Shown piece by piece: positions 1,027 through 64,000 of a stretch of DNA of 64,000 nt. The position numbers and the translations under genes are program-made. Within the stretch, counting starts at the first letter, position 1, and each line of letters opens with the position of its first letter. The DNA lies in IMG/VR virus record IMGVR_UViG_3300045806_000063, positions 117,109 to 181,108 of that record. One strand, written 5' to 3'. The notes below the pieces were generated by a model, which saw only the letters and a program-made list of their open reading frames with translations, did no database searches and had not been told where the DNA came from. The DNA comes from a virus.

Positions 1027-1062
1027 CATTATCACTCCAGCATTAATGCTGGAGTGATAATG
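1027..1062. terminator. Perfect palindrome after the protease gene
   Basis: A 36-bp perfect inverted repeat centred on CATTAATG with no unpaired loop lies 10 bp after the protease stop. An AT-rich stretch and then an early promoter follow, so it probably ends the upstream transcript. Confidence 0.7.
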
Positions 1063-2839: not shown

Positions 2840-3271
2840 ATGACTGAAAATACTACAAATGCTACTGTAACTTCCATCACTTCAAGTCCTGCAAAAGCAA
2901 AGATCAAACATGCTGACGGTATAGTGACCGTCTCCGGTCTGAAACCTGAACAGTTCTTGCCTGAAGGCACTGATGCGGGGGTATTCGGTTTGGTTGATAC
3001 AGCTCGCGATAATTTGCTGGCGACCGTACTGAATGCAACTACCGATTATGCTGAAAAGCATAAACTGGTCAATTACAATACCAAACCGATCAGCCTCGGT
3101 GGCGCTACCTCGGCAACACTGTCAGCAGTTGACCATAAGGTCACTTCTGATATCAAGCAGATTCACAATGCTGAATTGCAAGCCGCATATGCTAAGTCTG
3201 ATGACTATGCGAAGAAACAACTGGAAGCCCTGAATGCTCCAGCAGTAGAAGAAGTAGCTGAAGCTGCATAA
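2840..3271 (+). CDS. Hypothetical Ala/Thr-rich early protein
   Basis: The 143-aa protein has a low-complexity Thr/Ser/Ala-rich N-terminus, a central part with alternating hydrophobic residues, and an acidic Ala/Glu-rich C-terminus. ATG 2840 follows AAGGA at a normal distance. Codon choice (CTG, GGT, CGT-type) differs from most genes here and resembles that of chimallin and PhuZ, which suggests strong expression. Function unknown. It is monocistronic, ended by a bidirectional palindrome facing the tail tube gene. Confidence 0.75.
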   Translation: MTENTTNATVTSITSSPAKAKIKHADGIVTVSGLKPEQFLPEGTDAGVFGLVDTARDNLLATVLNATTDYAEKHKLVNYNTKPISLGGATSATLSAVDHKVTSDIKQIHNAELQAAYAKSDDYAKKQLEALNAPAVEEVAEAA

Positions 3272-3290
3272 ACCCTTACCGGTTGTAAAT

Positions 3291-3328
3291 GGATACTCCC
3301 ACACTACCTAGGTAGTGTGGGAGTATCC
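3291..3328. terminator. Bidirectional palindromic terminator
   Basis: A 38-bp perfect palindrome centred on CCTAGG lies between convergent genes (plus-strand stop at 3271, minus-strand stop at 3353). It is followed by T-rich sequence on the plus strand and preceded by few bases on the other, so it can serve both transcripts. Confidence 0.8.
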
Positions 3329-3352
3329 TAACTTACTTATCTTATTTTTTTG

Positions 3353-4261
3353 TTATTCTGCAGGACTTGAAGTGTATCTATTAGGCGCTATTGTATCTGG
3401 AGTAATAGAAGCCAATGTACCAGCGGATGATGCTGCAACATTAGCGTCCATAGTGTTAAGTATGCCTGCAAGTTCTTGTGGTCTAAGATCTTGCAGATTA
3501 AGACTTTGCAAGATTGCATATGCAAACATTAATGGAGCTTGACCTATTTGACTATAAGCTGTGAATGTTAAATCTACATCCACAGACTTCAATGATGCTG
3601 CAGTTTCTTTATATCCTTTAAGTTCGCCAATGCTGTCAGTGACTTGCCAGTTAGCAGATAACCATGCCTTTAATGGCCTTGTGAGGGTCATGTCAGGCTC
3701 AACAGCCAATACCACGAATGATTGGTCGGCTGGGGTAATTACTGGGCTACCTGCAGCAATGTAATTAGGATTTTGACAAATAGCTGGAGTTTGTAAATCG
3801 GGATCCATTAAATAGATACGAGAAAATTCAGTCCAGTATCGGGTGATAGATTGATTAATACGATCAGCGCCATATCCTAAAACTGGTTTAGAAGCCGCTC
3901 TAGAGGATCTAGTTATTGTTTCCAATACCTCATTAGCATTACCAATTGGAGTGGAGGCGCCATGTTCATTCGTCACTGTCATATCAAAACCATCCACTTT
4001 AATTGGATAAGTTTCAATCATGTTTTTCAGCCAATCGACTTCTTTCTGTGGATTAGTAGCATACTGAAATAATCTAGGTGCTGCTATTAGAAACAGTCTT
4101 AAAGGCTGTTGTATATAAATTCCTGATGATGTAAAGGTCATCGGGATAGGCATGAATCCGTTTTGACCATTGATGGACAAATCAGTCATAGGCGACCTGT
4201 ATTCGCCAGATAGTAACGGCGTTAATATATTGCTTTGTATAGCAGTAAGTGGTGTTGCCAT
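3353..4261 (-). CDS. Tail tube protein (phiKZ gp30-like)
   Basis: The 302-aa product lies directly downstream of the sheath gene with a 13-bp gap, the sheath-tube order of phiKZ (gp29-gp30). It begins MATPLTAIQSNIL and is beta-rich, with several residue pairs typical of tube proteins. It would form the inner tube of the contractile tail through which DNA passes. The ribosome binding site (GGAGG on the minus strand near 4268-4272) is strong. No early promoter element lies upstream of this pair, which fits late expression. Assignment rests on position, size and resemblance from memory. Confidence 0.8.
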   Translation of the reverse strand: MATPLTAIQSNILTPLLSGEYRSPMTDLSINGQNGFMPIPMTFTSSGIYIQQPLRLFLIAAPRLFQYATNPQKEVDWLKNMIETYPIKVDGFDMTVTNEHGASTPIGNANEVLETITRSSRAASKPVLGYGADRINQSITRYWTEFSRIYLMDPDLQTPAICQNPNYIAAGSPVITPADQSFVVLAVEPDMTLTRPLKAWLSANWQVTDSIGELKGYKETAASLKSVDVDLTFTAYSQIGQAPLMFAYAILQSLNLQDLRPQELAGILNTMDANVAASSAGTLASITPDTIAPNRYTSSPAE

Positions 4262-4274
4262 TTTACATTCCTCC

Positions 4275-6464
4275 TTAGAATGGTGATGTTGAAGTTACAG
4301 TGCCACCAGATAAATTACCTGTACGTGTAGCAACCACTGTAAACAAAGCTACGTCTTTCGTGACTCCGGCAGCTACAGTTAATACATTATGCCAACTAAA
4401 ACCATTTTGAGTATCTACTTCTGTGAAGAATGTAGATGACGTTATAACCGCCTTACTGTTATATATACCGTTGATAGCATTGTAAATCAATTCATCAGAT
4501 TTATCAATGAATATCTGCTGTGTAGTTAAGTCATCACGACCTACGAGTTGTCTCCATACTTTAGCTTGTTGCAGTGCTAAGTTGGCACAGATATGTCGTA
4601 TTACATCAGATGTCAAAATCGACGTATCATTAGGGTAGATAGAGTGAATGAATGGGTAGAAATACTGATTCCCCATACCAGACGGTATACAGTAAATTGC
4701 ACCATTGTTCCATGCCTCGTTTGCAGATAATGGTGTAAAGTTAGGACTACTTAATGATTTGAAATACTGCACACCGTTATTATCAGGCATGGTATAATCA
4801 AAGGTTCCGCCAACGGACATCACGCCATTACCAGCCCCCATATAAGCTGCTCGTTTCAACAGCATTTCTATGTTTGCAGTCATAGGAGTTTGATAACCAT
4901 CCACCAATAATCCAGCTTGCATAACCAGAGTGGCTCGATAAGCCGGAGTGCCAAAAGTAGGAGATTCAGCAAAGTTAAGAATAGACTGTTGCAGAATTGC
5001 CGCAGCTGATATTTCTTGAGCCTGGGTCAATAAAGGCCCACCGTCTACGTATGTGGCAAGATGGACCGAGGTGTTTTGACGAAGTGCCATCCACTGTGGA
5101 AGAATTTCTTTAGTAGCAGACCCGAAACCAGTATCGTAAATTTCACTAAATGGATATTTCAGTATATTCGTTGCAGGGCAGGTATCAGTATTGTAACTGT
5201 ATTGTGTCCAGTTTTGAATTTCAAGTTCATAGTCTGATGTTAACAAACTACCATCAGTACCGCCCATCATGTAATAGCTATTCCCAGATGAGAGAATACT
5301 CTCTGTTGCATCTATCTGGAATCCATAAGCGGTGCCACCATTAGCATCTGTAGCTGTTAAAAAGTCAAGCATCCAGATACTTGCTGGAGGAGTAGGGTTA
5401 TTTGCCACCTCAGCTGCAAACAGCACGTTTAAGAATTCTTCAAGATTACTTTCAAATACAGTAACTGCACCGATAGGGCTAGTTATTGGCGACGTACCTG
5501 TGTTAAAGCCATCATCAGACCAGTTTGTTACCAGACCTTGTATGGTTAAATTGAGGTTTGTAATTGGGTCATATGCGTTTGGTTTAAACATAAACTGCAA
5601 ACTAGCACTACCTTTCAAATCTGGAATGATTAGAGGAGTGGAAGTATTTATGTTTCTGATAATTTGAGCATTAAATAATAACGCTTGCTGACTTGCCACG
5701 GTACCGGTATTGCCCGGAAGTGGGTTATTAGGTGTAGCAGCCCACATATTGAAACCGAACATATTACCACCGACACCGGTAAAGGAATCCTCTACCATAA
5801 ATAATGGGTATGTTATTTGACCTACCGAGTTAGCCCAGGTAATCGGTTGAGTACCACCTGCCCCACCAGTCCAGGTAATTGGCAATCCGTTGGTTCCAGT
5901 CCATGTATCAGTGCTGCTGCTGGTTAAAGTACCATTGAGTTCAGTTAACGACATACTACCTTGTGGTACTACAGTGTAACTAACCTTAACACCGCCAGGT
6001 ACGGGAACTGGAACACCATCTACCATTAATAACTCTGGTTGGTTAGTAGATGCGTTGTAAACTACCTTACCGTTCACATCTCTTTGATATTCGTAAATAT
6101 CCGCACCGTGTTCGATTGTAGCAAGGACTACTGCTGATGCTTTTGTCACTGGTGAGCCTCCCACACCAGGAGTCCGAATGATTTTAACCATACAGGGATT
6201 GCCTTTTTGCAATGTATCAACCAGGGCTTTGGTTTGGTGATTCCAATAAGGTCCTCTTTGATCGAACGCTGCTGAGCCAATTTGCTGCAAGGCATCTAAA
6301 TAGCTCATAATAGCAAGAATGTCCTGATCATTCCCGTATGGGGAACGTATCATAAACAATGGAAAATGCTGAGGCTGTAACAAAGATATCTGAGTAGGGG
6401 CTGTCGTACTTTGATCATTAACCCCTGTAAAGGTAAAGCCTGGCAGGTTTGTATTTGTTGCCAT
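4275..6464 (-). CDS. Contractile tail sheath protein (phiKZ gp29-like)
   Basis: The 729-aa product is close to the roughly 700 aa of phiKZ-type sheath proteins. The N-terminus (FPLFMIRSPYGNDQDILAIM) and the rest of the chain are rich in Thr, Asn and Gly. The C-terminal part contains the conserved-looking domain that interlocks subunits (around residues 600-720). It forms the contracting outer tail cylinder. It is first in a minus-strand operon with the tube gene. The AGGAAG ribosome binding site is at about 6471-6476 on the minus strand. Confidence 0.87.
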   Translation of the reverse strand: MATNTNLPGFTFTGVNDQSTTAPTQISLLQPQHFPLFMIRSPYGNDQDILAIMSYLDALQQIGSAAFDQRGPYWNHQTKALVDTLQKGNPCMVKIIRTPGVGGSPVTKASAVVLATIEHGADIYEYQRDVNGKVVYNASTNQPELLMVDGVPVPVPGGVKVSYTVVPQGSMSLTELNGTLTSSSTDTWTGTNGLPITWTGGAGGTQPITWANSVGQITYPLFMVEDSFTGVGGNMFGFNMWAATPNNPLPGNTGTVASQQALLFNAQIIRNINTSTPLIIPDLKGSASLQFMFKPNAYDPITNLNLTIQGLVTNWSDDGFNTGTSPITSPIGAVTVFESNLEEFLNVLFAAEVANNPTPPASIWMLDFLTATDANGGTAYGFQIDATESILSSGNSYYMMGGTDGSLLTSDYELEIQNWTQYSYNTDTCPATNILKYPFSEIYDTGFGSATKEILPQWMALRQNTSVHLATYVDGGPLLTQAQEISAAAILQQSILNFAESPTFGTPAYRATLVMQAGLLVDGYQTPMTANIEMLLKRAAYMGAGNGVMSVGGTFDYTMPDNNGVQYFKSLSSPNFTPLSANEAWNNGAIYCIPSGMGNQYFYPFIHSIYPNDTSILTSDVIRHICANLALQQAKVWRQLVGRDDLTTQQIFIDKSDELIYNAINGIYNSKAVITSSTFFTEVDTQNGFSWHNVLTVAAGVTKDVALFTVVATRTGNLSGGTVTSTSPF

Positions 6465-6502
6465 AATACTTCCTTAATTAAAGTTTAAAAAAATTCACTT
6501 AC

Positions 6503-6531
6503 CCTATAGGGGTGCACTCACACACTATAGG
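6503..6531. promoter_or_regulatory. Inverted repeat in the divergent sheath/6633 intergenic region
   Basis: CCTATAG and CTATAGG are separated by 15 bp in the 168-bp gap between the divergent sheath gene and the gene at 6633. The spacing suits a dimeric protein binding site, or late promoter parts for either direction. No early promoter element is present in the gap. Confidence 0.35.
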
Positions 6532-6632
6532 TTGGTATCTATATATAACGTAGTCATAAAATAAAAAACATAAACTGACAGAGTTGCCGGAGATCTTATG
6601 TTTAAATTCATCACCTATATAAGGAGTAATGC

Positions 6633-7598
6633 ATGTCATTAGATCAGGGCGTAATTGAGGAAGGACTTTATAGTACTAACTACTTGGCATCAGAACAAGT
6701 AAAGGCCAAAACAATAATCAAACTTATAGGAAGAGATTATCTTCTTTTTAAAGATGATACATTAGTGTTCAAAACTATTAAACCGTCATATGGTGGAAGA
6801 GAAGGTAGAAGGGTTGTGGCGTTATTAGGAGATTTGCCAAACATACCTACATTTAATCATCCGATTTATCACAATGGAGTCTCATATATAGATGCTAGAG
6901 CATTTATCAATAGACAAAGTGGTGAAATACGAAATCAAGGTGAGTATGATAATTTAATCAGAAGAGCTATTTTGGACATGCTCTGGATTGAAGAACGAGA
7001 TATATTCTTTAGCGGACAAATCTTAAATCTGACAGCTAAAGTATTTAGTGAATGGGTAGGGGCAGGTGTAGAGAGAGGAGCTAATCTTGATATGCGAACC
7101 GCTGGAAATGTCAAGGTATTGCTTATGGCGTATATCTTATTCCAGGCAGTGACTAAGAATGGAATGGGTGCAGAAGAACGCAGTGCATTCATAATCAAAA
7201 AAGCAAGGGATATACTAGGTTTGCAAATGGAGTATGTGTTAACCTTAACTGAGACTTATCCAACTGCTTTCAGTGACATATATGAAAATCCAGGAAGAAT
7301 ATTCTTTTTAGTTAAATCATTGGCGGTGGTAACTAATGATGAGAGATTGAGCTTTGAAAGAACCCTTTATGATATCATTGGTAATGGGGCTACGATGCAA
7401 AGTAACTCTCGTGAACTGGCATGTATCTCTATTGAAAATATACCGACCTTTGTAGCGCTGATGCACTTTGTTAATTTCCCTAGTATGAAGACTACTAAAA
7501 TTGGAAGTCCTCTTTTCCATAGTCGTACAAAATATGGTGATGTTTTAGAGAGATTCATTTCTCTAAATACTAGCTATGAGACAATAGATGCAAGATGA
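6633..7598 (+). CDS. Putative virion-associated protein, phiKZ tail-region type
   Basis: The 321-aa product follows AAGGAG at a good distance. Residues 9-24 (EEGLYSTNYLASEQVK) are encoded by a 51-bp segment that also occurs exactly in the gene at 12361, so the N-terminus appears chimeric. The rest is helical and hydrophilic. It overlaps the next gene by 4 bp (ATGA) and heads a three-gene block next to sheath and tube. By position these may correspond to phiKZ gp26-gp28, probably tail or baseplate parts; that is inference. Confidence 0.65.
   Translation: MSLDQGVIEEGLYSTNYLASEQVKAKTIIKLIGRDYLLFKDDTLVFKTIKPSYGGREGRRVVALLGDLPNIPTFNHPIYHNGVSYIDARAFINRQSGEIRNQGEYDNLIRRAILDMLWIEERDIFFSGQILNLTAKVFSEWVGAGVERGANLDMRTAGNVKVLLMAYILFQAVTKNGMGAEERSAFIIKKARDILGLQMEYVLTLTETYPTAFSDIYENPGRIFFLVKSLAVVTNDERLSFERTLYDIIGNGATMQSNSRELACISIENIPTFVALMHFVNFPSMKTTKIGSPLFHSRTKYGDVLERFISLNTSYETIDAR
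6655..6705 (+). repeat. 51-bp in-frame repeat, copy 1
   Basis: This segment is identical over 51 bp to 12770-12820 and read in the same frame in both genes, giving EEGLYSTNYLASEQVK. Confidence 0.97.
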
Positions 7599-11778: not shown

Positions 11779-11818
11779 AGTAGATCCCATAGCCCCTTAA
11801 GGGGCTATGGGATCTACT
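11779..11818. terminator. Palindromic terminator
   Basis: A 40-bp perfect palindrome centred on CCCCTTAAGGGG lies 3 bp after the stop at 11775 and is followed by an early promoter. Confidence 0.8.
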
Positions 11819-16624: not shown

Positions 16625-18799
16625 ATGATTTTATTTTTATCAGACTGGGATAGATACCCTAACGCTATACCGGATACAAAGACCCAGAATACATCATGGT
16701 TAAATATGGCATCTATATTGAAAATGATGGGTATAGCGAACTATGCTTTTTTATTAGCGTTGCACGAACCAAGATTACAAGGAATTGATCCACACTCTTC
16801 AAATTTAACACCTACTCAGGTGTTAATGATACAGTTGGAATTAAAAAACAACCCTTGGTATTTTTTTAGGGAATATGCTAGAATACCTAATGGTAACTAT
16901 CCATTAAAGTTTGAAATCAATAGACCGGTCTTGGCTCTTCTTTGGTCTATGTTAGTTGGTATTTCCTTTGGTTTAGTAATGCCTCGTCAGTTAGGTAAAT
17001 CATTCGCTATGTATTTTTTTCACTTGTGGTTAGTAGATTACCGATATAGGAAAAGTGGTACGTTTATTTTAACCAAAGATGCTAAACTAAAAAAGGAATC
17101 AATAACGCACATGCAAATGTGTAGAGAGTTATACCCTGAATTAATTTCTCCGTTAATTAAACACGGTAATGATAAAGATGTCGATAACTACGATTCTATA
17201 ACCTGTAATAGATGGGGTAATCGAATAACCTTTGATATAGGCCATGCGGTACTGGCTACAGCTAACAATGTGGCTAGGGGCTGTACATTACCATTTATAC
17301 ACTCAGATGAAACTGCATGGACAATTAATGCACAGCTATCAATCCCACAGATGCAGTTTGCTACAGGTAGAGCTCGTGAAAATGCTAGAGAGTTTGGAAT
17401 TGTAAACTGTGATGTCTATACTACGACTGCTGGATTTTTAGATACTGAACATGGTAAATATGCTTACGATCTGATAATGTCAGGCATGTATTGGAATGAA
17501 AACTTATACGACTCATTGAACGCTAAAGACGCCCAATCTATCGTTCTAATGAATGCTCCGGGGAAACGATGTATTATTAATGGAACATTTAACTACCGAC
17601 AAGCTGGGAAAGATGATAACTGGTTAAAAGAGCGGATGGCTGGCGTTACGACTGATGTAGAGACCTTAGAGAATAACTTTTTAAACAAGTGGGGAAAAGG
17701 CGCATTATTTACATTCCTTACCAAACAACAATCTGAAGTAATCTCTAAGGGTGAAATGGCTCCATTACACACTTCAATGGGGGCAAACAAGTATTTAGTT
17801 GGATGGTATCTACGTAAATATGAAATTAACGAAACGCTTAATAGTGGTTATTTCGCTATTGGTTTGGATACTAGCCAAGCTGTTGGTCGAGATTCAAATG
17901 GTTTAATCTTAGTAGATCTAAGGAACATGGCAGTGATAGCCAGATCTCAGATTAACGAAGCTAACCTATTTAATTACGCTATGTGGATAGTAGATCTTTT
18001 GATTCAGTATCCTCGTGTAACCTTAGTAATTGAAAATAAAGCATCAGGTCAGAGTATACTAGATATTATAGTCCATCATCTATTAGCTAATGGAATGAAC
18101 CCTTACAAACGGATCTATAATTCGATTGTAGATAATTCCACAGGTAAAGAAACTGATAAAGAAAACTTTGAACTCATTCAACGCGGGTGGCGTGAAACTG
18201 AAGTATATGAGAAATTCAAAGATAAATTTGGTATCTCTACTAACCAAGAGATTAGACGGTTATTGTACGATGTTGTGATACAGAGTGCAGTTAACTCCAC
18301 TGGTCATTTAGTTAGGGATCCTATTTTAGCTGAAGAATTAAGAGGACTCATCACGAAGAAAGGACGAGTTAATCATGCGGTTAAAGGACATGATGATTTA
18401 GTAATTGGCTGGTTAATGACTCATTACTTTGTGAAGCATACCAGAAACTTAGAGTATTACGGAATTGATACTAACTATGTCTTATCTATGGTTAGTGATG
18501 ACGGGTCAATGTTATCACCTGCTGAACTAAAAGTGAAAAAAATTACTAACAGTATTAAGGAAGAGGTTATTAAGCTTAAGGATAAAATTAAGAGTTCTAC
18601 ATCTTTAGTGGATAACATGAGAGATGAAATGATCTTAAAGGTTAAGATAAATGAATTAAAGAAAACAGGAGACGTTAGTATCTCTCTGGACGCCGTTATG
18701 AAAGAGATCAAAGATGCTAGAGGTAAAACTGGTATTAAAGAAACCATCTTAGATCTACAGCGTAAACGAGGTCAGTGGGTAGGTATGAGACCTGTGTAA
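16625..18799 (+). CDS. terL: Terminase large subunit (phiKZ gp25-like)
   Basis: The 724-aa product is the DNA packaging motor and nuclease. The ATPase part has Walker A MPRQLGKSF (about 119-127) and a Walker B-type strand ending in DE (PFIHSDETAW, about 225-234). The nuclease part has GLDTSQAVGRDSNG (about 417-430), IENKASG and the late acidic GHDDLVIGW. The segment DVETLENNFLN with KWGK (about 344-358) is partly copied in a 53-aa gene at 19688. A charged helical tail of about 90 residues extends beyond the nuclease. ATG 16625 follows GGGGAAC. No early promoter is directly upstream, so expression is probably late. Confidence 0.94.
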   Translation: MILFLSDWDRYPNAIPDTKTQNTSWLNMASILKMMGIANYAFLLALHEPRLQGIDPHSSNLTPTQVLMIQLELKNNPWYFFREYARIPNGNYPLKFEINRPVLALLWSMLVGISFGLVMPRQLGKSFAMYFFHLWLVDYRYRKSGTFILTKDAKLKKESITHMQMCRELYPELISPLIKHGNDKDVDNYDSITCNRWGNRITFDIGHAVLATANNVARGCTLPFIHSDETAWTINAQLSIPQMQFATGRARENAREFGIVNCDVYTTTAGFLDTEHGKYAYDLIMSGMYWNENLYDSLNAKDAQSIVLMNAPGKRCIINGTFNYRQAGKDDNWLKERMAGVTTDVETLENNFLNKWGKGALFTFLTKQQSEVISKGEMAPLHTSMGANKYLVGWYLRKYEINETLNSGYFAIGLDTSQAVGRDSNGLILVDLRNMAVIARSQINEANLFNYAMWIVDLLIQYPRVTLVIENKASGQSILDIIVHHLLANGMNPYKRIYNSIVDNSTGKETDKENFELIQRGWRETEVYEKFKDKFGISTNQEIRRLLYDVVIQSAVNSTGHLVRDPILAEELRGLITKKGRVNHAVKGHDDLVIGWLMTHYFVKHTRNLEYYGIDTNYVLSMVSDDGSMLSPAELKVKKITNSIKEEVIKLKDKIKSSTSLVDNMRDEMILKVKINELKKTGDVSISLDAVMKEIKDARGKTGIKETILDLQRKRGQWVGMRPV

Positions 18800-18803
18800 C
18801 TAT

Positions 18804-18837
18804 TTACTCATCTAAGACTTAAGTCTTAGATGAGTAA
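18804..18837. terminator. Palindromic terminator
   Basis: A 34-bp perfect palindrome centred on AAGACTTAAGTCTT lies 4 bp after the TerL stop. Confidence 0.8.
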
Positions 18838-18858
18838 CAGTGGCATTCTTTTAAATTA

Positions 18859-18881
18859 AAAACATATATCATCTAAGTGAG
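18859..18881 (+). promoter_or_regulatory. Early promoter
   Basis: AAACATATATCATCTAAGTGAGG lies 46 bp before the ATG at 18928. The leader ends in AACTGGAGAAATAAAATG, the same ending as the PhuZ leader. Confidence 0.8.
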
Positions 18882-18927
18882 GATACTTAATTAGTCCTCT
18901 CTTTTAATAAATAACTGGAGAAATAAA

Positions 18928-19362
18928 ATGAGTAATGTACGAAGAGAATTAACAAAAGCTGATATTATTCTATTAGTCTGTGAATTCTCAGATAGTACTA
19001 AGTGTCCCATGTCGGATATCCTGGTGGGCGCAGGATCTGCTATGGTTTTACTTGGGTTGCGAGAAACTACTAATGACGTAGACATGTCAGTACCGGTTGA
19101 TATATTTGAGGATTACTTAACTGAACCCCCACATATCAGCGAAATCGTGTACGATGAAACGTGGAGACCTCATCACATTGATCTTGTCAACGGGATAAGC
19201 CTTCGTAAACATATGGGGTTCAAGTTACAGCTAAAGGCTGATCAAGGCTTCTTTATCCAACATCCTAAAGATATACTGGACCTCAAACTCGAACTCAATC
19301 GGGAAAAAGACCAAGCAGATATTAGAGCTTTACGCGAAGTTGCGAGCATATGGGGATATTAA
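18928..19362 (+). CDS. Nucleotidyltransferase-fold protein (MNT/AbiEii-like)
   Basis: The 144-aa product contains GAGSAMVLLGLRETTNDVDMSV (about residues 31-52). This matches the nucleotidyltransferase pattern in which a Gly-Ser loop is followed about 10 residues later by R-x-T-x-D-x-D; the two Asp would bind metal. Such proteins occur in toxin-antitoxin and abortive infection systems (AbiEii, MNT). It is small, so it may be a minimal catalytic core. It is first in an early operon and is followed after 2 bp by a HicB-like gene. Target unknown. Confidence 0.68.
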   Translation: MSNVRRELTKADIILLVCEFSDSTKCPMSDILVGAGSAMVLLGLRETTNDVDMSVPVDIFEDYLTEPPHISEIVYDETWRPHHIDLVNGISLRKHMGFKLQLKADQGFFIQHPKDILDLKLELNREKDQADIRALREVASIWGY

Positions 19363-19364
19363 AA

Positions 19365-19691
19365 ATGAGCAGTAAAGGTTACACATTTAATGTAAAACTT
19401 ACTGCTCATGGCTTTGTAGGCACTTGTCTAGAATTTCCAACATTACGAATAGTTGAGAGGAGTAGAGCAGATGCTTTAGCTGCTATTCAGCGTCTTACTG
19501 AGACAACTAAAGCGGGTAGAAACATTAGGAATGGACGAGTACCCTTAGCTATTAGTGATAGAACATATAGTGGGGAAATATCATTAAGGATACCTCCAGA
19601 ATTACATAAAAAACTAGTCTTTTTATCGAAGGAAAGAAGGACTACGTTAAACAGATTAATATCTGGACTTTTAGAGGAAGCCTTTGAATGA
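19365..19691 (+). CDS. HicB-like antitoxin-type protein
   Basis: The 108-aa product has the two-part HicB layout: an N-terminal domain (GYTFNVKLTAHGFVGTCLEF) followed by SRADALAAIQRL. A C-terminal ribbon-helix-helix-like part follows (SGEISLRIPPELHKKLVFLS, then TLNRLISGLLEEAFE). The RHH part would bind DNA and the N-part would bind a toxin. No HicA toxin is adjacent; the neighbour is a nucleotidyltransferase-like protein. ATG 19350 is an alternative start that overlaps the upstream gene. The stop overlaps the next ATG (ATGA). Confidence 0.75.
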   Translation: MSSKGYTFNVKLTAHGFVGTCLEFPTLRIVERSRADALAAIQRLTETTKAGRNIRNGRVPLAISDRTYSGEISLRIPPELHKKLVFLSKERRTTLNRLISGLLEEAFE

Positions 19692-19849
19692 ACGAGGAAT
19701 CCGAGGAACTTATTCATGGTATCAATAAGACATTTAAACACGAGCTGGGTGGGGCATATGGCAACTGGGTATTTGAGCGCTACACTGCTGTTAAAATTGA
19801 CGTAGAAACCTTAGAGAATAATTTTTTAAACCATTGGGGAAAAGAATGA
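19688..19849 (+). CDS. 53-aa protein carrying a TerL-derived segment
   Basis: This short frame is bounded by ATGA overlaps on both sides, strong evidence that it is translated. Its last 17 residues include DVETLENNFLN and HWGK, matching TerL residues about 344-358; the DNA agrees at about 40 of 45 positions and most differences are silent. The first part is acidic and unrelated. It may mimic a TerL surface or be a relic of recombination. Function unknown. Confidence 0.7.
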   Translation: MNEESEELIHGINKTFKHELGGAYGNWVFERYTAVKIDVETLENNFLNHWGKE

Positions 19850-20286
19850 CAAGTGTAATTAAAGGTAGTTTTGCAGAATATCTGGCTAACAACAAAAAAC
19901 ACACACCAAGTCTGGAACTGTACGTGTTAGCTGGAATACAGGCATCTGAAAATTCTTCAGTTATTCTGTATCTAGAGAGGAATGTATTCAAACTAGAGAC
20001 TATTCACAATGGAGATATCTCACTTGACTACATCTCTCCGCATTTAGTAGCCGAGGTCATTTACTGGATCAACGAAATACTACCATTGAATGACAATTTA
20101 TCAGTGGCATTATCACGTGGACTTAACATTCCAGTTAAAGTTAACATGCAGTTGAGTGTACCTGGTAAATGGGGACGATCTGATAGGCTGTCATCAATGG
20201 TAGATGATGGCATTAAAGACGAATATCCTCAACATGACTACTTTAGACGGATACCTCAGACCAAGAGTAGTGGGAGGTCGAGGTAA
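19846..20286 (+). CDS. Hypothetical protein, end of the HicB operon
   Basis: ATG 19846 overlaps the upstream TGA and gives 146 aa. The product has a mixed alpha/beta look with the segment SPHLVAEVIYWINEILPL in the middle and a basic C-terminus (KSSGRSR). No family recognised. A further open frame without an obvious start continues in the -1 frame from 20271 to 20420. Confidence 0.72.
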   Translation: MTSVIKGSFAEYLANNKKHTPSLELYVLAGIQASENSSVILYLERNVFKLETIHNGDISLDYISPHLVAEVIYWINEILPLNDNLSVALSRGLNIPVKVNMQLSVPGKWGRSDRLSSMVDDGIKDEYPQHDYFRRIPQTKSSGRSR

Positions 20287-20425
20287 ATCGTACCACTGTC
20301 AGCCTTGATAAAGGCGATACATTGTTGGTAGGTCAATATACCGGCCCCCGCCTTGAAGAAGGCACCACACAGCTACCTGACGGAGCTGTAGTCAACTGGA
20401 CGATAGTTTCCCTCCGGTAGGGTAA

Positions 20426-20459
20426 ATCTACCAGAGCGCCCTAGGGCGCTCTGGTAGAT
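20426..20459. terminator. Bidirectional palindromic terminator
   Basis: A 34-bp GC-rich perfect palindrome centred on CTAG lies between the convergent ends of the gene at 19846 and the minus-strand gene at 20479. T-rich sequence follows on the plus strand. Confidence 0.82.
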
Positions 20460-20478: not shown

Positions 20479-21705
20479 TTATTTTGCTAACAAGCCTCTT
20501 AAACAGATATAGAATATAGCAGCTATCCTAGTCGAGGTAACTGCATTTTCATGTATCCGTGGATTAGATTCTTCAACGATTATATCCATCTTTTCTTTTA
20601 TGTCTAAAAACTCAGGTGATTTAAATCTACTTGACCCTAATACTCCTTTCAGTTTCATTGCTACTTCTGGAACATTAGACAGATGAATATTTTCCTTTTT
20701 AATCAGGAGTAAACAAAACATTAATATTTCATCAATCAGTTCCTCAATATCAAACTTTATATGTCCTTTATTTTTAACTGTATAATTTTCTGAAATGAAT
20801 TCTAATGTTTTACTTAAGTGTAATTTGTGAGCTGTCTTGATTGTTATGATAACTGCATCCATGATATCATCTTTAATGAAGTTATTTTTATCAGGGACAA
20901 TATGCTCCATTAAGTTTTTAATGTGAGCTTGTGCATTAGTCGTGTCTTTTAAAATAGCCTCACCTTCAACAATGGTAAACTTTGATGTGGTAATTAATTT
21001 AGACTGACTATCCTTGATAGCATAATATTTGTTTGTGAGTCCTTGTACTAGAGATCTTAATCTAGTTTGGATATCATTTAATGCTAATACGATACCTCTA
21101 TCAGGAGTTAACTCCCTAATGATTGTAGCATGTAATGCATCATGACCAAGAATACTTTCTGCTCTGGCAGTTAGCATAGCTAACCAACTACCATATTGTT
21201 TTAACTGAGACTTGTTATCTAAAGACTCATAGACCATTTGGGAGATTCCTTCATCAGCTGGATAAGGAAATCTTCTTGTGTGTAAGCTACTCAGAAGCTT
21301 ATATTGCAAAGCCATAATAGCAGCTTCAGACATTAATACTTTTTCTTTTTCTGGTAGGTCTGATGTTAATGCTTTATGTACTAAATAAAGGAATGATATA
21401 TTAACAGCGTCTGATGATACTTTGAACCCACGAGTTATATCAGGGAGATCGTAGATGTCAGATTGGAGTTTATCAAAATCAGTAAACTGCATTACTTCAT
21501 TTTTCCATATGAACAGATCTTCATTAATCATGATAAAAGGATATACCCCAATTAGATTTCCACCTAAGAAATCTATATGGTTCCTCATCCTATCATGTTT
21601 TCTTGCTATTCCTTTAGCGTATGTTACTACGTCTAAAACAAACTCTCGATTAACCGGACGCGTTACTTGTTCATTAAATATCTTTAAAATTGAGTTACTT
21701 TGCAT
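20479..21705 (-). CDS. Hypothetical helical protein, probably late
   Basis: The 408-aa product is largely helical and charged, without a motif I recognise. It stands alone on the minus strand and has no early promoter element upstream, so it is probably expressed from a late or middle promoter. It could be a virion protein, as for many minus-strand genes here, but nothing in the sequence shows this. Confidence 0.75.
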   Translation of the reverse strand: MQSNSILKIFNEQVTRPVNREFVLDVVTYAKGIARKHDRMRNHIDFLGGNLIGVYPFIMINEDLFIWKNEVMQFTDFDKLQSDIYDLPDITRGFKVSSDAVNISFLYLVHKALTSDLPEKEKVLMSEAAIMALQYKLLSSLHTRRFPYPADEGISQMVYESLDNKSQLKQYGSWLAMLTARAESILGHDALHATIIRELTPDRGIVLALNDIQTRLRSLVQGLTNKYYAIKDSQSKLITTSKFTIVEGEAILKDTTNAQAHIKNLMEHIVPDKNNFIKDDIMDAVIITIKTAHKLHLSKTLEFISENYTVKNKGHIKFDIEELIDEILMFCLLLIKKENIHLSNVPEVAMKLKGVLGSSRFKSPEFLDIKEKMDIIVEESNPRIHENAVTSTRIAAIFYICLRGLLAK

Positions 21706-23431: not shown

Positions 23432-23467
23432 AAATACTACGTTGATGATATCATCAACGTAGTATTT
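23432..23467. terminator. Bidirectional palindromic terminator
   Basis: A 36-bp perfect palindrome centred on GATATC, with a T-run on one side, lies between convergent genes. Confidence 0.82.
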
Positions 23468-24331: not shown

Positions 24332-25303
24332 ATGAATAATGTTAAAAATAACAACAAAGTAAAAATTTATTACTGTGGTGGGGCTGGTGGAAAGTTAGCC
24401 CATCATGCTAACCTTTTGGAGATTGGTGACTTTACTGGTTTTGCTAAGGTAGAAACGGTGATCATGGATGCTTCATATTCGGATATCCCAGATGACACCA
24501 AGCATGAGGTATACGTCCCGGCACACTGTGACGGTTTTGGTAAAGATCAGAAGGAAGCTTATGACTTCCTAAAGAATCATTTCAATGAGATGATTCGTGA
24601 AAACCTACCAAGCGAATTTAATATCGTACTATTCAGTATGGCTGGTGCCACTGGAGCAAATATTGGTCTCGGTATGATTGAAGCCATTCTGAAACAAGGC
24701 AAACCCGTGGTTGGGGTAGCGATCTGCGCTATGGAGTGTGAGCGTACTACCACCAATACAAGGAACACGATTAAACGATTGGAAGTAATCGTTAACCGTA
24801 CTCAAAAACCGGTAGTTATATCGTTCCATGACAATGGGGAATTCCCTATGTCAGTGGTTAACGATCATATCATTCAGGAGATTAAAGCTCTTTTATTACT
24901 GAACAGTGGTCAAAATACCGGTATTGATACTGAGGATGTCACTAACCTGATTGACTTTAGAGGGGTGACAAAGTTCGAACCAGGTTTGGTTGATTTGATT
25001 ATCACCACCAAACCTGACCAAGTAAAAGTCAATGTGGCAATTGCTGCACTGAGTCTGTATAACGACCTGGATTCACCCAAACTGGATATTACCAGTATCT
25101 ACTCAGGTTTTGGTATCATTCCAGACGGCGCTCAAGGTGCAACAAAGGAACCTATTCCTGAGGCGCACTTCATCGTAACAAATGAGTATCTGGAAAGTCG
25201 ATTAGATCTACTGGATAAAAAGGTAAAGGACTATACCGATGCAAGAGAGCTGATTAAAGGATGCGCTGGTCCTAGAAACACGAATACCGAGTTCGAGTTT
25301 TAG
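24332..25303 (+). CDS. phuZ: PhuZ, phage tubulin/FtsZ homologue
   Basis: The 323-aa product polymerises into a spindle that centres the phage nucleus and moves capsids to it. GTP-binding features are the N-terminal glycine loop CGGAGGK (15-21) and the tubulin signature loop MAGATGANIGLG (about 103-114). The length matches known PhuZ proteins of about 315 aa. The C-terminus (NTNTEFEF) is acidic with alternating aromatics, like the tail known to contact the next subunit. Codon use is suited to strong expression. It is monocistronic or leads into the 25382 operon through a palindrome. Confidence 0.95.
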   Translation: MNNVKNNNKVKIYYCGGAGGKLAHHANLLEIGDFTGFAKVETVIMDASYSDIPDDTKHEVYVPAHCDGFGKDQKEAYDFLKNHFNEMIRENLPSEFNIVLFSMAGATGANIGLGMIEAILKQGKPVVGVAICAMECERTTTNTRNTIKRLEVIVNRTQKPVVISFHDNGEFPMSVVNDHIIQEIKALLLLNSGQNTGIDTEDVTNLIDFRGVTKFEPGLVDLIITTKPDQVKVNVAIAALSLYNDLDSPKLDITSIYSGFGIIPDGAQGATKEPIPEAHFIVTNEYLESRLDLLDKKVKDYTDARELIKGCAGPRNTNTEFEF

Positions 25304-33140: not shown

Positions 33141-33180
33141 GGGGATTAAATACTACTGTAGTATGTTAGACTGTTGAGTA

Positions 33181-33214
33181 ATTACTCCTTCCTCGATATC
33201 GAGGAAGGAGTAAT
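33181..33214. terminator. Palindromic terminator in the 127-bp repeat
   Basis: A 34-bp perfect palindrome centred on GATATC is followed by a run of T (33226-33240). An identical copy lies at 63911-63944. Confidence 0.82.
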
Positions 33215-33249
33215 GATGTATTCTTTATTTTTTTTTCTTTTAAATCGAA

Positions 33250-33270
33250 AACATATATTATCTGAGTGAT
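33250..33270 (+). promoter_or_regulatory. Early promoter
   Basis: ACATATATTATCTGAGTGAT, followed by AGTCCGTAGTTAA as at 1557-1569. The next gene starts at 33304. Confidence 0.82.
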
Positions 33271-35648: not shown

Positions 35649-37556
35649 ATGTCAGAAGTAAGACAAGAAACATTAGGAACAAACCGTACCAGCGGTGATC
35701 AAGTAAAGCAAGAAAGACCAGAAAGAGGTCCTTCTCGTAGACCAATTGAAGATGCCCAAGGTGAGCGTAAACCACGCCCATCTTCCAAGCTGTTTAATCA
35801 CTCCATGGCGGGTAGCAGAAGCACTGCTGATCTGGAAGAGATAGTAAAAACGTTTGAGGCTATCTGCAAACAATATGCAGAAGTTGAGAACATCGTCATT
35901 GAAGTAAAACCAATCAGCCACAATCTGGCAATTCCAGCAATCCTGTTGATCTATCGGGAAGGCTCAAATAAGGTACGATATACCGCACTCTTACCATCTG
36001 GTATGCTGCAGGGCACTATTGCTGACAAAGAAGAAAATGAAAGAGGACAAAAATTTTACACTCCTCGATTTGCAGCAGATCTTTGGCCTGGCCTTATGGA
36101 GGATACAGCGGAAGATCTAATCAACCGTACGTACTTCAATGGTAATGCCCAGAAAGGCTGGATACGACTCTGTAGTGTTATCGTACTGCCAGAGCATTCC
36201 GATTATCGTCAGTTAAATACTGCGATTATCGCATTTGATCATGGAGTTACTGCACTGTTGGCAATTTCTCGTTTGGAGAAAGGTGAGTCTACAGCCTCAT
36301 ACTGCTATCAGGATTTTGAAGATCGGGGCATGAAATTGTCAGGGATTGCTGAAGTCAATCCGACTGGTACAATTCTCAGTACCTTAGGTGAGCCACTGGC
36401 AGTGGATTTCAAATTATCAGTGTTAGCAAAAACTGTAAACAATGGTTCAGAGAATCTGCATGATACTGGCACTAGCATTGCGATAACGACAGTTTATGGG
36501 GCTATCGACTTCCAGCTTCTGCCGGAAGAAGAAGAAGTCAAAACCATTAATCGGGATAAGTTTTACCCAGTGGTAATTCCTAAACTGATCATTAAGCAAT
36601 CAAGTTCGGTTAATCCGAACAACCCAGAAAACACAGATTGCTTGATGTCTCAAATCCTGGGGCTGTTAATGGTCCGTCTCTACTCTGAGAAGCCTGAGAG
36701 ATGGGGCCAGATGTTTGAACCCGATAATGCTTCTCAGAACAACAATATTGGCGCCTTGGGTCTGGTCGGCAATCCGTACGCTGATACTACACTGGAGTTA
36801 GGAGTTCACAATGTTGTGAGTAAAGTCACACATGGCCGAAATGCTGGTGGAAAACTGGTAGCTGATCTACTGAATGAGTATTGTTCAGTAGCTCCAATGA
36901 TTATATTGGAAATTCCAGAAGGTGGTCCTCTTGAGGCCCTCCAGAATTATCTGGTGGAAGAGACTAGTGCAAACTATTCGATTATTGCTAACGAACTGTC
37001 AAGTTTCGTTGGGGTTCCAGATAGCTTTGCTGAAGCCTGGGAAAGTGAAGGTGGACCAGCAAGAATTCCGATCTTGGAATTAGAATCGCCACTGAACTTA
37101 CCATTGATTCGCTACACCGGCCATGCGGAAGCAGGTGGTATTCTCCATGATCCAAATGAAATCGATCTGTTACATCTGTTAAACGTAGGTGTATCGATGG
37201 ATGTTATTCAAGATTATGACCAGTTGCATTCACCGGGTGCAAACCATCCAGCTGAACTTAATCAAAGGTATAGTAACATTAAGCGTGTTCTTGATAATGC
37301 TAAAATCACTGGAACCTCAGTGCAATATTGCATTAATATGGACTGGTTAAACCTGGTAGATGATTTCCTCGGGAGCTATGGCATAACCATTGATTTGGAT
37401 GAAGGTCTGACCTTTGGTAATAATGCTTTCGGTCTGTCACGTGGTGGTAGTAGCAAACATGCGGAAGGTTCTGCTATGTTCCGCCGCAGTGGTCTGTCAC
37501 GGACTCGTACTTCCCGTCCTATTGGTGGTCTGAATTCAAGCAGACGTTCATCTTAA
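35649..37556 (+). CDS. chmA: Chimallin, phage nucleus shell protein (phiKZ gp54-like)
   Basis: The 635-aa product is the same size as known chimallins (about 610-630 aa) and lies directly before the RNAP beta' N gene, as in phiKZ (gp54-gp55). It self-assembles into the flexible lattice enclosing replicating phage DNA. The N-terminal 60 residues are charged and likely disordered, then come two folded domains. The C-terminus (SGLSRTRTSRPIGGLNSSRRSS) is a basic flexible tail, which in chimallins mediates lattice contacts. GC content and CTG/CGT codons point to strong expression. ATG 35649 follows AGAGGTAAGT. The 21-bp EKGESTA segment at 36275 is shared with the gene at 33622. Confidence 0.9.
   Translation: MSEVRQETLGTNRTSGDQVKQERPERGPSRRPIEDAQGERKPRPSSKLFNHSMAGSRSTADLEEIVKTFEAICKQYAEVENIVIEVKPISHNLAIPAILLIYREGSNKVRYTALLPSGMLQGTIADKEENERGQKFYTPRFAADLWPGLMEDTAEDLINRTYFNGNAQKGWIRLCSVIVLPEHSDYRQLNTAIIAFDHGVTALLAISRLEKGESTASYCYQDFEDRGMKLSGIAEVNPTGTILSTLGEPLAVDFKLSVLAKTVNNGSENLHDTGTSIAITTVYGAIDFQLLPEEEEVKTINRDKFYPVVIPKLIIKQSSSVNPNNPENTDCLMSQILGLLMVRLYSEKPERWGQMFEPDNASQNNNIGALGLVGNPYADTTLELGVHNVVSKVTHGRNAGGKLVADLLNEYCSVAPMIILEIPEGGPLEALQNYLVEETSANYSIIANELSSFVGVPDSFAEAWESEGGPARIPILELESPLNLPLIRYTGHAEAGGILHDPNEIDLLHLLNVGVSMDVIQDYDQLHSPGANHPAELNQRYSNIKRVLDNAKITGTSVQYCINMDWLNLVDDFLGSYGITIDLDEGLTFGNNAFGLSRGGSSKHAEGSAMFRRSGLSRTRTSRPIGGLNSSRRSS
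36275..36295 (+). repeat. 21-bp in-frame repeat, copy 2
   Basis: Exact copy of 34182-34202 within chmA, in the same reading frame. Confidence 0.88.
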
Positions 37557-49928: not shown

Positions 49929-52034
49929 ATGAAAAAAGAAGTAATAGCAGTAGATGGTGAATTAATGGGAATTGTAGCAATGATAAATTCATTTGCAACA
50001 TTTACCAGTGCACCAAGGATAGCAATGTTATGCAATCAGATTAGACAAGCATGTATGGTTGCCTCACCTGATATACCATTAATATTACACAGCTATGAGA
50101 GTCAGTTAAGAGCTTATGACATCAGAATGCCTGAAAATGGTATAGTGGTGTCCGTACATTATAAGTATCGTAACGGGTTTGATTCTAAGGATAAAAGATG
50201 TCCACTAATAACCGTAATCTATCAGAAGACTTCAGGGGAGAAAGCGGGGGAGTATGACTGTGTTAATATACATGAATTTAATACAAATCATCTCGATTAC
50301 GGTTCAAGGTATGTGCCTGAACCTATAATTGGTAAGCTACGCAAAGGGCTACCTATAGCTAAGGATACAATCTTTGCAAGATCTCCATCTAAATTAGTTG
50401 GAGACATTTATTCCACCAGTGTAACTTGTAACGTATTGGCAGTTGGCGATTCAGCTACTACGGAGGACGGGTTTCTAGCGAGTGACGAGTTTTGTATTCG
50501 TGCAGGGTTATTGGAAGTTGATAAGTACACAGGGTCGTGGGGGAAAAAAGCCTATCTATTAAATAGCTATGGAACCTTAAATGCATTTAAAGGGTATCCT
50601 GATATAGGTGAAAAAGTAAGACCTGATGGGTTATTAATGGCGTTTCGAACCTATCACGAGGACTTTGGTGCATTAGAGATGACAAATGAAGCTCTGATGA
50701 CTCCAATGCCTGAACACGATATAGAAATCTATGCAACTCCAGGATCAGTAGTCTACGACATCTTAGTTGAAAGTGGAATTGGAGAAACTACCAAGGAAGC
50801 GATTACTCCTGTTAATATAGCTAAGCAGTCAGAAAGATATATAAATCAGCTTTCTAATTATTATAAGGAGTTGCTTGAAGTAGAAGCTACAATTTTTAAA
50901 GAAAACAAACATGCTAGATTTTCAGAAGGGTTATTGCAGATCTTAACTAAAGCTTTAGCTGATAAACCAAATGCTCCAGCATTAAAGACTGGGGCAGGTG
51001 GTAGAGTAAGAAGATGTTATAGACGTGAGAACTTAGATGAGTATCGCATCGTAGTAAAAACGTATAACCCAACTAAATTAAACAAAGGAGCAAAGATTAC
51101 CGACCTAAACGGTAACAAGGGTGTGATATGTGGCATCAGACTGAAAAAGGATATGCCAATAGATTCTAAAGGTAATGTAGCTGATTTACTATTCTTCTTT
51201 AAGAGTGTAGTAGCTAGATTGAATACCGGAGGAATGATGGAAGGGTTTTGTGGAGCAGCCATACGGGATTTATCTGCTGAAATAACAGAACGGTATAACT
51301 CTAAACTGATAACTGGTGGCTGGAATGCTTTTCATCAGGACGCCTGGGATCGGATAGTAAATTTCTATAGGGTGTTTGTTATACTGAATTATGAATGGGC
51401 TACTAGTCCTGAAATAAGTGAGTCCGATAAGATTAACCATATCAATGTTATCATTGAGGATGTAATGCGAGTTACGTTCCCACTTGATAGCCCGAATAAT
51501 AACATCGATTTAGTAGGGAGTATTTTAACACAAGTCCAACCAACATATGGAAAGATCCAATACACTGATTTCCTTGGCAGGAAGACAATGTTAAGATATA
51601 ATGGGTTTATGTCAACTAAACAGATGATAGTTTTGGAGAAGACCAAACTAGATTTAATGGCAGTGTCCTCAGGAGTACGACAAATCCATGGTCTGCTAAC
51701 TGGTTCTAGTAGAGTTACCCGTAATGCAAATCCATCTAAGACACAGGCGGTACGAAACTTATCAGAGACCGAGATCAGAATGTTAGCGGGTATATGGGGC
51801 GGTGAACTAATAGCTCAGTATATGGCATTCACAAATGACCCAAGGGCTCATAAACATTTAATTGCTACAATATTAAGAGCTGACGACCCAATGATAATTC
51901 CAGATATCGAATCAGATATCAATGGTTCCAGAGCTTTGAAGTTGATAAAAGATGTGTTTTTCACATACGGTATTGTAATAAGAAAAACGGTTAGTCAATG
52001 TAGTAGAATGGTGAATACATGGTTAAAGAAATAA
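49929..52034 (+). CDS. RNA polymerase beta subunit, C-terminal part (phiKZ gp71-73-like)
   Basis: The 701-aa product shows beta C-half signatures: TTEDGFLASDEF (about 178-189), then KITDLNGNKGVICGI with KDMP (about 389-409), the equivalent of TGRHGNKGV...DMP. A downstream segment (VARLNTGGMMEGF) is equivalent to SRMNIGQ-LE. It is intact as one frame, with no intervening homing endonuclease gene. It overlaps the beta' gene by 16 bp. It belongs to the non-virion enzyme by order. Confidence 0.92.
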   Translation: MKKEVIAVDGELMGIVAMINSFATFTSAPRIAMLCNQIRQACMVASPDIPLILHSYESQLRAYDIRMPENGIVVSVHYKYRNGFDSKDKRCPLITVIYQKTSGEKAGEYDCVNIHEFNTNHLDYGSRYVPEPIIGKLRKGLPIAKDTIFARSPSKLVGDIYSTSVTCNVLAVGDSATTEDGFLASDEFCIRAGLLEVDKYTGSWGKKAYLLNSYGTLNAFKGYPDIGEKVRPDGLLMAFRTYHEDFGALEMTNEALMTPMPEHDIEIYATPGSVVYDILVESGIGETTKEAITPVNIAKQSERYINQLSNYYKELLEVEATIFKENKHARFSEGLLQILTKALADKPNAPALKTGAGGRVRRCYRRENLDEYRIVVKTYNPTKLNKGAKITDLNGNKGVICGIRLKKDMPIDSKGNVADLLFFFKSVVARLNTGGMMEGFCGAAIRDLSAEITERYNSKLITGGWNAFHQDAWDRIVNFYRVFVILNYEWATSPEISESDKINHINVIIEDVMRVTFPLDSPNNNIDLVGSILTQVQPTYGKIQYTDFLGRKTMLRYNGFMSTKQMIVLEKTKLDLMAVSSGVRQIHGLLTGSSRVTRNANPSKTQAVRNLSETEIRMLAGIWGGELIAQYMAFTNDPRAHKHLIATILRADDPMIIPDIESDINGSRALKLIKDVFFTYGIVIRKTVSQCSRMVNTWLKK

Positions 52035-63875: not shown

Positions 63876-64000
63876 TTAAATACTACTGTAGTATGTTAGA
63901 CTGTTGAGTAATTACTCCTTCCTCGATATCGAGGAAGGAGTAATGATGTATTCTTTATTTTTTTTTCTTTTAAATCGAAAACATATATTATCTGAGTGAT
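63874..64000 (+). repeat. 127-bp promoter-bearing repeat, copy 2 (runs to window end)
   Basis: Exact copy of 33144-33270, including the palindromic terminator (63911-63944). Confidence 0.97.
63980..64000 (+). promoter_or_regulatory. Early promoter at the window end
   Basis: ACATATATTATCTGAGTGAT; its gene lies beyond the window. Confidence 0.8.

Follow-up and report, generated by a model that had tools for sequence, protein, structure and literature searches.

A nucleotidyltransferase and an orphan HicB-like protein in a predicted early cargo cassette of a nucleus-forming jumbo phage

Small nucleotidyltransferases (NTases) and HicB-like antitoxins are both known from described systems. MenT1, of the MenAT1 system, uses tRNA 3' ends as nucleotide acceptors, whereas the lincosamide nucleotidyltransferase LnuA uses a small molecule. 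The toxicity of MenT1 depends on its residues D41, K137 and D152 (PMC10435456). In HicAB systems with the 110-aa HicB subfamily, hicA lies upstream of the gene for the two-domain HicB protein. Freestanding CcdA/HicB-like antitoxins, associated with homing endonucleases, have been described in aquatic moraphages (PMC12619734). The closest NTases by sequence family are the phrog_12854 proteins of EL-like and Burkholderia (Chiangmaivirus) phages, which usually occur as a tandem DxD/DxN pair, or as one or two DxD copies, beside an NAD-dependent DNA ligase; no paper on this NTase family itself was found in the literature searched. The NTase described here resembles them in sequence family, DxD motif, size and jumbo-phage lineage, but it is a single DxD copy located behind terL and next to a HicB-like gene. 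The present phage shares with the moraphages an orphan HicB-like gene in a large phage genome, which here stands beside an NTase.

The DNA analyzed (the window) is a 64,000-nt stretch that runs from base 117109 to base 181108 of a virus record 181,108 bases long. A search with the TerL protein of the window matched 295 phage records, mostly phiKZ-type jumbo phages, and the closest match was the TerL of Vibrio phage sm033 (37%). The window also encodes a tail sheath and the following proteins:

24332-25303, tubulin PhuZ
35649-37556, nuclear-shell protein
49929-52034, RNA polymerase beta subunit

The presence of these four proteins shows that the source is a nucleus-forming (phiKZ/chimallivirus-type) jumbo phage. 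An exact 93-base overlap is common to both ends of the record (window 63908-64000 and bases 1-93 of the record start), and a third exact copy is internal, at window 33178-33270. This looks like an assembly break at the repeat and not a clean complete genome, and because the end overlap is repeated internally, the absences reported below are only absences from the 181-kb record. Two tRNA genes were found in the record and none in the window, no Rfam family was matched, and PADLOC gave no match.

The locus consists of four small plus-strand genes between terL and a conserved minus-strand gene, with the following features:

16625-18799, plus strand, terL, flanks the cassette on the left; the 53-aa copy probably derives from it
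18804-18837, 34-bp perfect palindrome after terL at the left cassette edge, probable terminator
18846-18880, plus strand, early-type promoter with core ATATATCATCTAAGTG, predicted to drive the cassette
18928-19362, plus strand, NTase of 144 aa, phrog_12854 family, MenT1/LnuA-like fold
19365-19691, plus strand, HicB-like protein of 108 aa, counted from the second ATG (a start at 19350 would give 113 aa)
19688-19849, plus strand, 53-aa ORF, copy of TerL residues 309-358
19846-20286, plus strand, 146-aa orphan protein, no relative found
20287-20425, plus strand, G+C-rich tail (52% G+C versus 38% for the record)
20426-20459, 34-bp perfect palindrome at the right cassette edge, probable terminator
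20479-21705, minus strand, conserved 408-aa protein (m408, phrog_2921), the right neighbour

The initial annotation had described these four genes as an early operon tied together by overlaps. All four plus-strand ORFs are present, and the ATGA 4-nt overlaps between the HicB-like gene and the 53-aa ORF (19688-19691) and between the 53-aa ORF and the 146-aa gene (19846-19849) are real; the overlap between the NTase and HicB-like genes, however, is probably not. The starts of HicB homologues align with the second ATG, at 19365, so these two genes are probably separate, with a 2-nt gap. The G+C-rich tail contains an open frame, about 49 codons long and lacking an ATG, which begins inside the 146-aa gene; no relative of its peptide was found.

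The interval between terL and the m408 orthologue was compared in eight relatives, in all of which (8/8) the m408 orthologue at the far side was confirmed by sequence search. The two genes directly adjoin in sm033, pir03 and Yong MS32; they are separated by one gene in BONAISHI, DT01 and Eowyn, by two genes in LucasX and by four in pVa-21. The NTase, HicB and HicA were absent from the intervals of all eight. Because the interval varies in content, from zero to four other genes, it is a cargo spot, occupied in the present phage by the four cassette genes. New here are the combination of NTase and HicB, an NTase that lies apart from the ligase locus, and the small gene derived from TerL. Each cassette protein with a family match joins a known family; the 146-aa protein stays unmatched.

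Further copies of the 35-bp element at 18846-18880 occur throughout the record, nearly all of them oriented with the genes. Its core, ATATATCATCTAAGTG, had seven matches in the window with up to 3 mismatches, compared with 0.03 expected; a looser 24-base scan allowing six mismatches was unspecific by itself (14-21 matches in shuffles). Elements of this type also precede PhuZ, the RNA polymerase subunit and other operons. The cassette promoter fits the early-promoter class published for phages N1M2 and OBP (PMC7058600). The earlier designation of the operon as early agrees with this promoter, and early transcription of the cassette is a well-supported prediction. The record also contains about 60 long perfect or near-perfect palindromes with arms of 11-21 bp, often loopless, mostly located a few bases past the 3' ends of genes and mostly without a T run (for example window 1027-1062, 3291-3328, 11779-11818, 18804-18837, 20426-20459 and 23432-23467). 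They probably form an unusual terminator set. The 34-bp palindrome beside the promoter was considered as a special HicB operator and was rejected, since there are about 60 such hairpins, mostly at gene ends.

The NTase was analyzed by profile search and structure prediction. Residues 9-139 matched phrog_12854 over its full length (E 2.4e-19). The score against DUF6036 (PF19502) was 13.2 bits, below the gathering threshold of 23.6, and the protein is not counted as a member of that family. The motif residues are G36-S37...T48-N-D50-V-D52, followed by D85, K120 and D128; T48, D50, D52, K120 and D128 are all present, and D85 lies on strand 81-86 of the model. The model, for which 19 sequences from the window and from IMG/VR were used, had a pLDDT of 90.4 and a pTM of 0.85, and its top Foldseek matches were small NTases. 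The best fold relatives were LnuA (Z 11.4), TM1012 (Z 11.2) and MenT1 (Z 11.2), over 125-134 residues, followed by the aminoglycoside nucleotidyltransferase ANT(2'')-Ia (Z 9.9), MenT3 (Z about 8.2) and AsfvPolX (Z 8.1 over 82 residues). Identity to the best solved relatives was 9-17%, and to the family relatives 19-35%. The hG[GS]-x(9-13)-Dh[DE]h motif, the third acidic residue and the NTase fold place the protein in the pol-beta-like superfamily. The initial annotation had recognized a nucleotidyltransferase-fold protein with a D-x-D pattern and had proposed structure prediction as a check; the prediction returned a nucleotidyltransferase fold, and at the level of this model the first gene is confirmed as a genuine nucleotidyltransferase with intact catalytic residues.

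MenT1 has the fold in common with the phage NTase (Z 11.2, 134 residues), together with the T-x-D-x-D motif and a later K and D. T48/D50/D52/K120/D128 of the NTase answer by motif order to T39/D41/K137/D152 of MenT1, a correspondence that past the T-x-D motif is our reading from motif order and not a structural alignment. However, identity to MenT1 was 17%, there was no profile match, no MenA-like neighbour was recognized, and no match to the MenT/AbiEii (DUF1814) family was found in Pfam, NCBIfam or PADLOC. The resemblance to MenT is one of fold and motif only. LnuA and ANT(2'')-Ia likewise match in fold at 9-13% identity. The shared fold does not give the substrate of the NTase.

Sequence relatives of the NTase were found in EL, in Burkholderia phages FLC6 and SURPRISE13, in FLC8 and pir03 and in IMG/VR jumbo contigs (13 contigs, EL itself being among them). 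Relatives by fold were found in RSF1, PhiEaH1, RP12, 201phi2-1, Phabio and Noxifer; scanning viral contigs with the single NTase sequence gave nothing. Two tandem NTase copies directly precede an NAD-dependent DNA ligase in EL and in most IMG/VR relatives, and in nine EL-like jumbo-phage stretches this pair is located around positions 5450-6950 of those stretches. In EL, an RNase H follows the ligase. The Burkholderia phages carry one or two copies after the ligase. An alignment of 25 members showed DxN in each of the nine second copies of the EL-like tandems and DxD in the remaining 16, which comprise first copies, single copies and the two copies of FLC6. In EL, the DxD copy is gp120 and the DxN copy gp121. 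The EL-like tandem could possibly be an enzyme plus a degenerate partner.

These neighbourhoods raise the explanation that the NTase restores RNA or DNA ends cut by host nucleases, or together with a ligase forms a minimal polymerase X. The ligase and RNase H neighbours of its relatives, the AsfvPolX fold match and the two tRNA genes of the record are consistent with it, and NTases are known to serve jumbo-phage RNA repair (RlaP; PMC7824862). However, the whole-chain matches were MenT1, LnuA and TM1012 and not polymerases, the cassette NTase has no ligase next to it, a search of the 181-kb record for relatives of the ligases of EL and the Burkholderia phages found none, and the NTase had no Pfam match to RlaP. 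A role in end repair is considered rather unlikely.

The HicB-like protein matched PF05534 with an E-value of 8e-9 and 35.7 bits (gathering score 21). Its model was middling (pLDDT 74, pTM 0.44) and contained a diverged N-terminal HicB domain and a ribbon-helix-helix (RHH) domain; HicB structures were its top fold matches, with weak E-values, and its sequence profile had no credible match among solved structures. The profile score and the two-domain layout uphold its earlier description as HicB-like. Plasmid relatives were 33-39% identical over nearly the full length, and in the four inspected (4/4) a HicA or HicA-like gene lies directly upstream. In a set of 80 bacterial and 44 viral HicB loci (124), hicA was directly upstream of hicB at 65 of the 78 bacterial and 38 of the 43 viral loci with enough upstream sequence. 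The neighbourhoods of its homologues trace the phage protein by descent to a HicA-coupled antitoxin. No hicA gene is adjacent to it, and Pfam and subfamily-profile searches of the incomplete 181-kb record found no HicA, in line with the annotated lack of a HicA partner. Unlike the HicAB systems, the phage has a HicB without hicA, with a diverged toxin-facing domain and with an NTase in the position of hicA.

We also analyzed which conserved positions the phage HicB has retained. Compared with 27 relatives, which keep 28-31 of 31 conserved positions in the N-terminal (HicA-binding) domain and 17-19 of 20 in the RHH domain, the phage protein keeps 13/31 (18 lost) and 13/20 (7 changed), respectively, a divergence that is exaggerated because the bacterial set was found by patterns from its own consensus and is biased to conserved members. 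The YR-WS-ED hairpin is among the changed N-domain residues. With 18 of 31 residues changed, standard HicA binding is doubtful. This bears on the explanation that the orphan HicB is an anti-defence protein that neutralises host HicA toxins released on infection, the NTase being unrelated. Nearly full-length homology to HicA-coupled antitoxins and the early promoter ahead of the cassette point in this direction, as does the published suggestion that large phages use freestanding antitoxins against the toxin-antitoxin systems of their hosts (PMC12619734). However, the loss of those N-domain residues speaks against it. We regard a principally anti-defence role as fairly improbable.

The initial annotation had proposed the NTase and the HicB-like protein as a possible new toxin-antitoxin or anti-defence unit. 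A Pfam search of 17 phage records, 16 of which have an NTase family match, found no HicB, and the NTase family is thus, as far as gene content tells, a lineage gene of nucleus-forming phages that works without HicB. Conversely, this NTase was absent from the neighbourhood of all 124 HicB loci, bacterial and viral. This lack of either partner with the other elsewhere is the strongest argument against a pair, to which are added the usual position of the NTase beside a DNA ligase, often with a second copy, and the lack of both genes from the terL-m408 intervals of the eight relatives. The strongest argument for a pair is that the HicB gene stands where its relatives follow hicA, behind a protein of toxin-like NTase fold, and that its toxin-facing half is the most changed. 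A hybrid toxin-antitoxin module, in which the HicB-like protein has exchanged HicA for the NTase and acts as the antitoxin of this enzyme, a MenT-like toxin, would account for these features. The fold of the MenT1 toxin and the intact catalytic residues of the NTase fit such a module, as does the HicB gene 2 nt behind the NTase, where bacterial relatives carry hicA; MenT toxins use unrelated antitoxins (MenA1 of 68 aa, and the COG5340 proteins MenA3/4; PMC10435456), and the N-terminal domain of HicB diverged most, as a new partner would require. However, the pair is known from a single example, no paper on an NTase toxin paired with HicB in a phage was found in the literature searched, and the ligase neighbourhood of the NTase relatives is unlike that of addiction modules. 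A hybrid module is very unlikely, and a further version, in which HicB is re-targeted from HicA to the MenT-like NTase and the TerL-derived peptide is an additional regulator that mimics part of the packaging motor, would be even less likely. The two genes are probably neighbours and not a new toxin-antitoxin pair.

The 53-aa ORF was compared with terL. It is 52% identical in amino acids to TerL residues 309-358 (tblastn E 2e-12), 47 of 55 bases at its 3' end are identical to terL, and its 5' part is also homologous to terL (0 of 20,000 shuffles reached the score). At the DVETLENNFLN-WGK segment it follows the TerL of its own phage and not those of sm033, pir03 or Eowyn. The ORF is a copy of TerL, as had been annotated. 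The last 18 codons had a pN of 0.12 and a pS of 0.47, and the first 31 codons a pN of 0.46 and a pS of 0.53, all from small counts. An intein or intron trace as the source of the copy is not supported: the Eowyn TerL does carry an insertion, but between query residues 127 and 149 and not near 358.

Some TerL arrangements were observed among the relatives. The TerL of Klebsiella phage Eowyn (979 aa, 2995-5934 of the examined stretch) has an in-frame insertion near the Walker A region, at query residues about 127-149, which looks like an intein, and EL-like TerLs are split at the site of this insertion. Vibrio phage pir03 has a second, partial TerL (322 aa, 4002-4967 of the examined stretch) that matches TerL residues of about 9-174.

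The 146-aa protein had no relative in phages, in its own record, in the relatives or in viral contigs (single-sequence scan), and did not match the gene that precedes NTase-A in the EL-like phages; it stays the unknown protein it was annotated as. With one gene a TerL fragment and one an orphan, a HicB without its toxin and a tail that is a G+C-rich remnant, the cassette could be a chance assembly of captured gene fragments without present function. However, none of the four reading frames is interrupted, there is ATGA coupling and an early promoter ahead of the genes, the catalytic residues of the NTase are intact despite 19-35% identity to relatives, and the 3' third of the TerL copy, on its small counts, keeps its protein sequence. 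Decay of the whole cassette is quite unlikely.

We favour, with modest confidence, an early cargo cassette of a HicB-independent MenT/LnuA-like NTase and an orphan HicB regulator, which may possibly have residual anti-HicA activity. The cassette would be transcribed early from the variable spot between terL and the conserved gene. The NTase would be a working enzyme that transfers a nucleotide using an NTP and Mg2+, for which an RNA 3' end is the likeliest predicted acceptor, and it would act independently of HicB. The HicB-like gene would have been captured from a bacterial, plasmid or prophage hicAB operon with loss of the toxin, and its product may now act mainly via the RHH domain, regulating its own or another early operon. 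The drift of this domain (7/20 conserved positions changed) and the fact that no HicB operator was identified count against the regulator reading. The 53-aa and 146-aa genes would be coupled passengers.

The analysis relates a widespread, uncharacterised family of NTases from nucleus-forming phages to the MenT/LnuA fold and lists the catalytic residues. These residues and the conserved DxD/DxN tandem of the relatives make the role of the small phage NTase biochemically testable. The orphan HicB at an early cargo spot provides a clean case for the question of whether phage-borne antitoxins are regulators or anti-toxins.
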